Assembly (NCBI GenBank): GCA_030149525.1
Contig: JASBRJ010000335.1
Coordinates: 1-55,434, forward strand
From: a bacterium
Lineage (GTDB): Bacteria; Vulcanimicrobiota; Xenobia; Xenobiales; JADMJV01
DNA length: 55,434 nt
Reading direction: 5' to 3'
Below are positions 51,232 to 54,510 of this stretch, piece by piece. Below the pieces are notes generated by a model. That model worked only from the letters and a program-made list of their open reading frames with translations. It did no database searches and had not been told where the DNA came from. The position numbers and the translations under genes were made by a program. Each line of letters opens with the position of its first letter. The stretch's first letter is position 1.

Positions 51232-52458
51232 GTGGATATGGTCACTCATAGACTCAGGTGGCGAGACGTAGCACCGGAAAGACGGCGATTCGACGAACTC
51301 CGGGCGACCCAGCTCGTGTCCGAACTCCTACGCGAATGGGTCAACCCCGGCCCTGAAAGATTCGGTGCCGACTATCTGGAAAGCTGTATCGACCTACATC
51401 TGGTACAAAACTTCGGGATCTGGATCTCTGGTTGGCGCTCGGGGTCCGAAGGGGGTCCTGTCATCAGTCGTCTGCGAATGGATGACTCGCCATCCCAACA
51501 GGTCCTCTCCGTAACCTCCGCCATCAAAGAGTGGCGAAGTTTTCTTGACGAGATAGATCAGGTGATCGCCAAGCTGCCGTTCTCCACCGACGACCAGATA
51601 GAGCTTCGTGTGGAAAGGGCCGCCGCTCGCCTCATTCCCATGGTCCTCAAAAGAACAGAGGCGCAGGAGGCCTGGTACAACACCTGCTCGCTGGCGCTGA
51701 ATTGGTATCTGGAAGCTCACGGGTTTGGAGATCGCGATTCAAGAGCGGCTGTCAGGCGGACCTTCTCAGGACAGTTCCAAAGTTGGGTAGAGGCCCCACC
51801 GGAGCGACAGATAACGGCCTGCGAACGAGTGGGTCGAGCGGTCGCAGAACTGGCAAAAAAAGAAAAGTCTGCGGTTGACTGCCTGGAGCGTTGGTTGGAG
51901 GGGAGAGAATCCTCCGAGGCGCACTTCGAACACTTTCCTTCCCTCTACCCACCCCTTCGAAGCGACGGTCATGCGATCTACATCAAATACCAAGAGAAAG
52001 ACGACAGAATGTGGTCGGCGCTGCAAACATCCCGTCGGTGGGCCGAGACATCCGAGCCACTCACCCTCTCCGTACTCAAGCAATGGCAATCGCTCATTCT
52101 AGGCAAACAAGACATCCATCTGCGTACCACTGATGCCTTCGCCAAGAGAGGGCGTGAACGATACTCGGTGTCCCTTTTGCCTCGCTTTGAGGAATTCCTC
52201 AGCCAGGCCAACGACGACAATCTCGCTCCTCCTTGGAGAGGTGCCCTGCTATATCTCGATATCTGCTTCTTCCATCCTTTCCAAGATGGAAACGCGCGTC
52301 TGGCCCGCTTGGCCCTTGACGCCGTGCTTGTGAGGGCTGGTTTCGCCTTAAATTATATTGAGCCGCTCTTAGTGGTGGCTCGCGCGGCCGAAGACTACCG
52401 AGGCGGGACGACACTTGCCCTGACGGTGTCGGATCTCATGGGAGAAATTCCCGAATAA
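51232..52458 (+). CDS. Fic-domain protein
   Basis: 408 aa from GTG 51232, with GGAG 11 bases upstream; ATG 51238 is also possible. The Fic core is C-terminal: LSVLKQWQSLILGKQDIHL near 283, then the catalytic motif FFHPFQDGNARLARLALDAV near 342-361, which keeps the HPFx(D/E)GNxRxxR residues. Fic enzymes transfer AMP or another phosphate-linked group from a nucleotide to a protein side chain. The first 280 residues are unlike the usual short N-terminal helix and contain several Arg/Trp-rich helices. An inhibitory (S/T)xxxE(G/N) motif is not obvious. The preceding CxxC protein may be its regulator or target; that is inference. Confidence 0.85.
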   Translation: MDMVTHRLRWRDVAPERRRFDELRATQLVSELLREWVNPGPERFGADYLESCIDLHLVQNFGIWISGWRSGSEGGPVISRLRMDDSPSQQVLSVTSAIKEWRSFLDEIDQVIAKLPFSTDDQIELRVERAAARLIPMVLKRTEAQEAWYNTCSLALNWYLEAHGFGDRDSRAAVRRTFSGQFQSWVEAPPERQITACERVGRAVAELAKKEKSAVDCLERWLEGRESSEAHFEHFPSLYPPLRSDGHAIYIKYQEKDDRMWSALQTSRRWAETSEPLTLSVLKQWQSLILGKQDIHLRTTDAFAKRGRERYSVSLLPRFEEFLSQANDDNLAPPWRGALLYLDICFFHPFQDGNARLARLALDAVLVRAGFALNYIEPLLVVARAAEDYRGGTTLALTVSDLMGEIPE

Positions 52459-52460
52459 GG

Positions 52461-54494
52461 TTATTTTAGCCACCGCTTGAGGGTGATCTCCAACTCCTTA
52501 AAAGCGAGGGGCTTGCTCAAGAAATCATCCATTCCGGCTTCCAAGCACCTCTCTCTTTCATCGTTGAGAGCATGAGCTGTTAGCGCCACGATCACCGGGC
52601 TCCCGAACGTCTTGCGACCGGCTCTTAGACGACGGGCGACCTCGATTCCATCAAGCCCCGGCATCTGGCAATCCAAAAGCACAAGATCAACGCTACGTTG
52701 CGAGAGCGTTTGCAGAGCCGTCTCCCCGTCCTCGGCCACCAGCGCCTCACCCACCGAGAGCTTTTGAAGTTGAAGTCTCACCACTCGACGATTGATAGGA
52801 TTGTCTTCCACCACCAGAACAGAACGAGTCGATAGGTCCACAGGCTGGGTGTCGTCAGCGACGATGAGCGGGCCCTCACTTTCCGGCACAGGCAGAGCGA
52901 CCTGAAAGCGGGTCCCAACTCCCTGCTGACTTTCGAACTGCAGAGTGCCGTCTAGGAGGCCGACCAGTCTATGGACAATGGCAAGACCCAGTCCTACGCC
53001 ACCATGACGGCGTGCCATAGACGAATCGACCTGAGTGAAAGGGCTAAAAAGCGTCTCATGAAACTCTTCCGGAATTCCTGGTCCCTCGTCCCGAACTTCC
53101 ATATTGAGACTTCCCATTTCATAAGACGCCCGAACCGAAACGGTGCCGGTTTCACTGTATTTGATAGCGTTTCCGATGAGATTGGTGAGGATCTGAACGA
53201 TTCTTGGTTGATCTCCCAGCACATATTCCGGGAGCGAATCGTGAGCAACGCATTCTAGTTGGACTTCAGAATCGGCAAGCGCGGGACGAAAGACACTCTC
53301 GATATCGTGGAGCATTCCCCGGGGGGAAAAGGATTTCGTATGAATATCGAGCTTACCGGCCTCAATCTTTGAGATATCCAACAGATCGTCGATGAGATGC
53401 AAAAGGGTGTTGGAACAACTCAAGGCCGTTTCGGCGAAGTCTTTTTGCTTTTTATCCAGACGTGTCTCTTCGAGCAGCTCCAGCATCCCGCGGACGCCGT
53501 TGAGAGGCGTGCGAAGCTCGTGACTCATCATGGCCAAGAACTCGGATTTCACAGAGTTGGCTCGTACGGCTTCATCTCGGGCTTCGGTAATCTGCCTTAA
53601 CTGGTCTCTGAGTTGAGTCGTGTCGTGCAACACCGCCACGGCACCACCGATCTCATCGGGCAACGGTCGCGCGGAAACTCTCAGCCAACGGGCGGAAGTC
53701 GGGCCGCAGATCTTTATCTCCGAACCGTCGACTGCGACTCTTTCGCGTACAGCCCGGATCAGTGGCATTTGGCTTGGTGGGATTCTCTCTCCGGTCTCGT
53801 CTTCAGCCCAGTGACTCTCCCCCCAGCTTTGCATATTCTTGGGTCGGACCTCTAGTGCAGGAACCAGTAACCTGGCCACGGGATTGGTATGGACGTAATT
53901 CTCCTCGGCATCCATGACCACCACTCCTTCACTCAAATTCTCCAGAATAGCTTCTAAAATCTCCGTTTTCTCTGCGAGAACGCGCTGGGCTTCATCGAGC
54001 TCCTGAGCTCGGCGAGTCGCAAGGGCCGTTCTCTCTTCAATCCGCTTTTCAAGCTCAGCGTTCAACGTCGTAAGGGCCGCTTCGGCCCGTTTGCGCTCCT
54101 CAACCTCTCGTTCCAACTCCTCGGGGAAACGCATGGAGAGTGCCCGGGGAGCCAGGGGGATCATAACCATGACTGTGGCACAAGAGACCAGGGCCGTCAG
54201 CGCCTTCATGAGTCCAAGAAAACGATAGGCTGGATATTGGAAAGTCAGAAAATCCACGAAATGAGTCGATCCGCAGAAAATAATGAAGGCCCCAAACAAC
54301 CAGAACAGATTGCGGAACGGCACCTCCTGGCGTTTTCTCGCGAAGTAAACCAGAATCACCGGGATGGCAAGGTAGGCAGCCCAGATCAAAATATCGGAAA
54401 TGTAATGGAGCCAAACTAGCCCCGGAGTCCAGCCCCCTCAGGCGGTTCTAGGTGCAAAGTCGGAAGCATCGAAGAGTTTCGTGAAGAAAGACAT
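52461..54494 (-). CDS. Ethylene-receptor-like hybrid histidine kinase with in-frame TGA (possible selenocysteine)
   Basis: 677 aa if the TGA at 54440-54438 is read through. ATG 54494 has AAGGAGGT 8 bases upstream. The first residues MSFFTKLFDASDFAPRTA run into TGA, then GGWTPGLVWLHYISDILIW and the sensor: FGAFIIFCGSTHFVDFLTF with Cys74 and His78 matching the copper ligands of plant ETR1 (C65/H69), SD at 33-34 matching D25, and ALVSCATVM. Relatives read PxGHCYLW or PRWxCGxW at the TGA site. Then follow coiled coil, PAS (about 175-295), H-box SHELRTPLNG with H325, N-box NLIGNAIKY, G-boxes and a receiver with LVLLDCQMPG and LSKPL. The only downstream start, TTG 54389, lacks part of the sensor. 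Confidence 0.8.
54407..54436 (-). promoter_or_regulatory. Hairpin directly after the in-frame TGA (SECIS-like candidate)
   Basis: One base after the TGA, GGGGCUGGACU pairs with AGUUUGGCUCC over 11 pairs (four of them G-U) with loop CCGGGGCU. Bacterial selenocysteine elements sit just behind UGA, but usually have the apical loop about 16 or more bases away and G in the first two loop positions; here the loop starts 12 bases after TGA and its first G is third. Confidence 0.35.
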
Positions 54495-54502
54495 TGGGAC
54501 AG

Positions 54503-54510
54503 ACCTCCTT
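54503..54510 (-). promoter_or_regulatory. Shine-Dalgarno that fixes the kinase start
   Basis: AAGGAGGT, a perfect anti-16S match, 8 bases before ATG 54494. It shows that translation starts upstream of the TGA. Confidence 0.85.

Follow-up and report, generated by a model that had tools for sequence, protein, structure and literature searches.

Kinase gene, reading frame and sensor domain

The window, i.e. the whole 55,434-nt stretch of DNA analysed here, carries on its reverse strand a hybrid sensor histidine kinase gene (52461..54494 (-)), delineated by frame reading and Pfam domains, which we propose to encode a selenoprotein. The gene spans 677 codons when a TGA at codon 19 (54438..54440 (-)), the proposed selenocysteine (Sec) codon, is read through; according to the frame and the alignments, homologues have Cys at this position. 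Inspection of the sequence and its upstream context revealed a Shine-Dalgarno motif, AAGGAGGT (54503..54510 (-)), separated by an 8-nt spacer from the ATG at 54494. The first-pass annotation had reported that the frame opened by this ATG soon meets a TGA and then runs into the sensor domain without offering a later ATG or GTG. Both observations were borne out: the TGA at codon 19 is the sole internal stop, the 658 codons beyond it are intact down to the terminal stop at 52461, and after the TGA no start codon occurs before the TTG at 54389. Convergent with the kinase gene lies one for a Fic-type protein with a HPFQDGNARLARL motif (window positions 51232-52458 (+)).

Pfam and structure prediction place an ethylene-receptor-type membrane sensor domain, ETR1_N, at residues 26-121 (54132..54419 (-); 2e-37, 127.8 bits against a cut-off of 27). 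Pfam also identified HisKA (residues 316-380, 53355..53549 (-)), HATPase_c (residues 427-537, 52884..53216 (-)) and a response regulator receiver domain (Response_reg, residues 559-670, 52485..52820 (-)), which together make up a hybrid histidine kinase architecture. Helices of the sensor are predicted at residues 24-54, 61-84 and 90-120, and residue 19 is predicted to lie in an ordered segment directly ahead of helix 24-54 (mean pLDDT 95.6). Searches of solved structures returned neither a sequence match nor a fold match.

Alignment of the kinase with a sequence that we take to be that of ETR1 matched ETR1 residues D25, C65, H69 and K91 to D34, C74, H78 and K97, respectively. In a 49-row alignment of homologues, the copper-site equivalents Asp34 (54393..54395 (-)), Cys74 (54273..54275 (-), an ordinary Cys codon and not TGA) and His78 (54261..54263 (-)) are invariant; K97 is nearly so. 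C65 and H69 are Cu(I) ligands in ETR1, and the four ETR1 residues take part in binding copper and ethylene or in receptor output (PMC11819568, PMC12643061). Since the N-terminal domain keeps these Cu(I)/ethylene residues, it probably senses ethylene or another small ligand that binds Cu(I), with output likely passing through HisKA and the receiver domain.

If the TGA were a true stop, a shorter kinase could arise through reinitiation at TTG 54389, from which a table-11 reading yields a 642-aa frame. However, this codon is located inside the first predicted membrane helix (residues 24-54) and lacks a Shine-Dalgarno motif, and its use would remove the invariant Asp34. Furthermore, the upstream ATG of the window gene has a good Shine-Dalgarno ahead of it, and that of L151, one of two further TGA-bearing genes described below, has a weaker one (AAGGA). 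We regard reinitiation as having next to no likelihood.

Conserved cysteine column and further TGA-bearing genes

The sensor is present in 16 of 198 related genomes and in 14 of the 149 genomes within its own phylum. Column 19 is Cys throughout the 49-row alignment when the three TGA-bearing rows are taken as Cys; one distant homologue, L034, has Ser at this place. Seven columns are invariant in this alignment (C19, D34, F70, C74, H78, Y90 and S104); on this evidence, the near-universal N-terminal Cys is conserved as strongly as the copper ligands. The first-pass annotation had claimed a Cys at the place of the TGA in relatives and had proposed aligning at least 20 homologues; the 49 rows agree with the claim, and the flanks align without gaps to both the HGHCYLW and the RWxCGxW types.

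Elsewhere in the same genome lies another ETR1_N gene (L019, G000:C225:32349-32771); its product is of the HGHC type, and the Cys is encoded by a normal TGT. A full-protein scan of the genome contigs was dominated by kinase-domain matches and yielded no additional sensor homologues. Homologues occur in 19 plasmid records, and none was found in the viral contigs searched.

A profile search of 392 Planctomycetota genomes, seeded with the Planctomycetia MAG sequence L115, detected the domain in 42 genomes. Two of the genes, L151 and L155, carry TGA at the identical codon (FATRTTUGGWSSELVWLHNSSDILIW and FVSRRDUGTWTPGLVWLHNSSDLLIW, respectively, with U at the TGA), and the remaining 31 sequences read out have Cys. 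L151 and L155 contain one internal stop each and are otherwise open kinase genes of 438 or 824 codons with ETR1_N. This brings the TGA members to three, in all of which the kinase parts after the sensor are intact, yet differently built. Local GC content is 55% for the window gene, 37% for L151 and 64% for L155, and the genomes of the latter two are absent from the own-phylum search list, so that the window gene seemingly comes from a different phylum. Monophyly of the three TGA sensor domains was neither supported nor rejected (p-AU 0.495). Searches of smaller classes around genomes G415 and G298 returned no more TGA members. A third TGA flagged in Planctomycetota (L177, G357:C92:599-945) was set aside, as it belongs to a frameshifted ETR1_N pseudogene that keeps the Cys and has its TGA past the frameshift.

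These comparisons bear on whether the TGA is a recent nonsense mutation of a Cys codon, i.e. the mark of a young pseudogene. One base change would be enough, the closest homologues of the same family have TGT at column 19, and the frameshifted gene in G357 is a genuine pseudogene of the family, although its Cys is kept. On the other hand, 214 single-base changes could create a stop in the kinase gene, of which 8 turn Cys into TGA and only 2 affect an invariant Cys. Such a small share of the nonsense changes open to the gene, together with the recurrence of TGA at this codon in two more independent genomes, makes a chance TGA unlikely. The remainder of the gene is intact, and the other two lineages share with it the downstream hairpin described below. 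We consider a nonsense mutation very unlikely.

A sequencing or assembly error at 54438-54440 is conceivable, since the window is one of the 398 contigs that make up a draft genome. Such an error would, however, need to recur at one codon in three unrelated assemblies, all with selA, and would leave the common hairpin unexplained, which makes it a highly improbable source of the TGA.

Selenocysteine machinery and downstream hairpin

The selenocysteine reading had been made to depend beforehand on the presence of selA, selB, selD and tRNA-Sec (selC), and all four were found in the host genome. selA (489 bits) and selB (329 bits) both score above cut-off and are adjacent on contig C390, and selD lies directly upstream, forming a single selD-selA-selB cluster. 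selD (L119:7995-9022 (-), G000:C390) contains a single TGA at the canonical Sec site (LTEMVKCAGUASK), followed by a hairpin (AGAUCC, loop GACCCAA, GGAUCU) with G as the first loop base. As read from its CAGU motif, selD is itself a selenoprotein gene, and the cluster is one of autogenous Sec synthesis. A canonical tRNA-Sec with a TCA anticodon scores 73 bits. The window and the sel-operon contig agree in GC content (55.3 vs 54.8%) and in tetranucleotide composition (r = 0.967), which argues against a binning error. In the L151 and L155 genomes, selA was the Sec gene examined, and it scores above cut-off in both; it is also present in many genomes with Cys homologues, hence it does not tell the two kinds of genome apart.

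The host genome carries two tRNA-Sec-like genes (L120, G000:C119:9251-9344; L121, G000:C223:1600-1691). The canonical one adjoins a gene for a tyrosine-recombinase-type integrase. The second matches the canonical gene exactly at its 3' end, yet its D arm is weak and its acceptor contains mismatches, and it looks like a tRNA-Sec copy or the attachment-site remnant of an integrated element.

Reading of UGA as Trp or Cys, through a code change or suppression, would presumably also leave the frame open. Nonetheless, the genome has a Sec system and a selD with TGA at a known Sec site, the kinase TGA is unique in its gene and falls on the Cys column, and other genes were read without any code change. 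The chance of such decoding therefore seems minute.

Downstream of the TGA we located a candidate bacterial SECIS hairpin, GGGGCU-AGUUU-GGCUCC (54407..54423 (-)), and assessed it by folding, recoding and pairing tests and against published constraints (PMC13188914). In that bSECIS model, the loop has 3-9 nt with G in its first two bases, the stem has 4-16 bp, the loop lies 16-37 nt from the UGA, and the energy is at or below -7.5 kcal/mol (PMC13188914). The window hairpin, 17 nt long, begins 14 nt past the UGA, its loop lies 20 nt past the UGA and the second loop base is G. It agrees with the model with its 6-bp stem, the energy of -7.5 kcal/mol being scored with a seventh pair and the loop GUU. 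The hairpin recurs as GGRGCU / GGCUCC at nt 18-34 in all three TGA genes, with a loop of AGUUU or CGUGU. Folded alone, it has energies of -7.5 kcal/mol in the window, -8.4 kcal/mol in L151 and -6.7 kcal/mol in L155, the last lying above the published limit of -7.5.

Pairing is complete in each gene (6/6, 18/18 cells overall, with one G-U/A-U change), compared with 39-61% for slid partners, and no compensatory double change was seen in the hairpin across the three genes. Upon synonymous recoding, a 6-bp stem appeared at the same place with P = 0.030, 0.012 and 0.073 for the three TGA genes, and a test for conserved synonymous codons across the hairpin region gave no more than a hint (P = 0.055). 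Among the Cys homologues, L172 alone has a 6-bp stem at the same place (-4.1), and none is stable there. The window hairpin is no more stable than dinucleotide shuffles, the SECIS model with its limit of -7.5 kcal/mol accepts about 6% of the window's TGA sites, and Rfam gave no match at the hairpin site. Each of these hairpins is weak evidence singly; together, they are good evidence for a SECIS.

The first-pass annotation had left the choice between selenocysteine and a nonsense mutation or read error. Selenocysteine is now strongly favoured, since TGA occupies the same codon in two other genomes with the same SECIS-like hairpin, and the Sec machinery is in place. Sec insertion at codon 19 is well supported by computation. 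We conclude that the gene very probably encodes a selenoprotein, namely a membrane hybrid histidine kinase of the ethylene-receptor type with Sec in place of a near-invariant N-terminal Cys.

Proposed role of Sec19 and relation to known systems

In the mechanism that we propose, translation would begin at ATG 54494, and the UGA at codon 19 is strongly indicated to be decoded as Sec by SelB with Sec-tRNA(Sec), the 17-nt hairpin that begins 14 nt past the UGA acting as the directing signal. The full-length sensor would then be produced only when selenium is available. Sec19 sits just ahead of the first predicted membrane helix and, by analogy with the topology of ETR1, probably at the outer face of the membrane. 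There it might act as a more reactive stand-in for Cys, serving either as a soft Cu(I) ligand or loading site near the metal site, or as a subunit-linking diselenide or redox switch. Schaller et al. are said to have described plant ETR1 in 1995 as a disulfide-linked dimer, and in plant ETR1 the disulfide link runs through an N-terminal Cys pair. A subunit link through residue 19 is plausible given that dimer. That Sec19 forms part of the Cu(I)/ethylene site or gates it, either as a selenolate ligand or as an inter-subunit diselenide redox switch, and that receptor production depends on selenium, is a tentative proposal that we hold to be possible rather than likely.

A Sec residue beside a copper-based ligand site in a sensor kinase would bring selenium into signal perception. 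The finding also draws attention to the N-terminal Cys of bacterial ethylene-receptor domains, which is conserved like the copper ligands and for whose role we found no statement in the literature examined; the natural exchange of Sec and Cys would offer a route to probing its function. Genes of this kind would be cut short or overlooked by annotation pipelines for which UGA is a stop.

The best reading of the sequence data is that the gene represents a selenoprotein family not listed before, in which a membrane sensor kinase of the Cu(I)/ethylene type has Sec just ahead of its first membrane helix. No paper in the open-licence literature searched joins ethylene receptor, selenocysteine and histidine kinase, and no selenoprotein model of this kind was among the best 25 NCBIfam matches to the kinase. 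With known bacterial selenoproteins, the gene shares the UGA at a conserved Cys column, the SECIS-like hairpin downstream, SelA, SelB, SelD and tRNA-Sec, and the existence of Cys homologues. In contrast, the 119 prokaryotic selenoprotein families tabulated in a 2026 review are mostly redox enzymes and include no histidine kinase, two-component sensor or ethylene-receptor protein (PMC13188914). An unspecified histidine kinase selenoprotein candidate from marine Deltaproteobacteria was proposed by bSECISearch (PMC8318568). It would likewise be a Sec-containing histidine kinase, compared here by description only, as the main text of that source gives neither its domain nor its Sec position.

The closest likeness in architecture is to the ethylene receptors sharing ETR1_N (PF25487; ETR1, SynEtr1 and AzoEtr1), which combine a three-helix N-terminal sensor bearing Asp, Cys and His copper-site residues with histidine kinase modules that follow it. 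The examined homologues have an N-terminal Cys, whereas the three TGA genes, assigned to the receptors by sequence, have UGA at that position. If the Sec19 reading is true, the ethylene-receptor superfamily would include, in this kinase, a member that depends on selenium.
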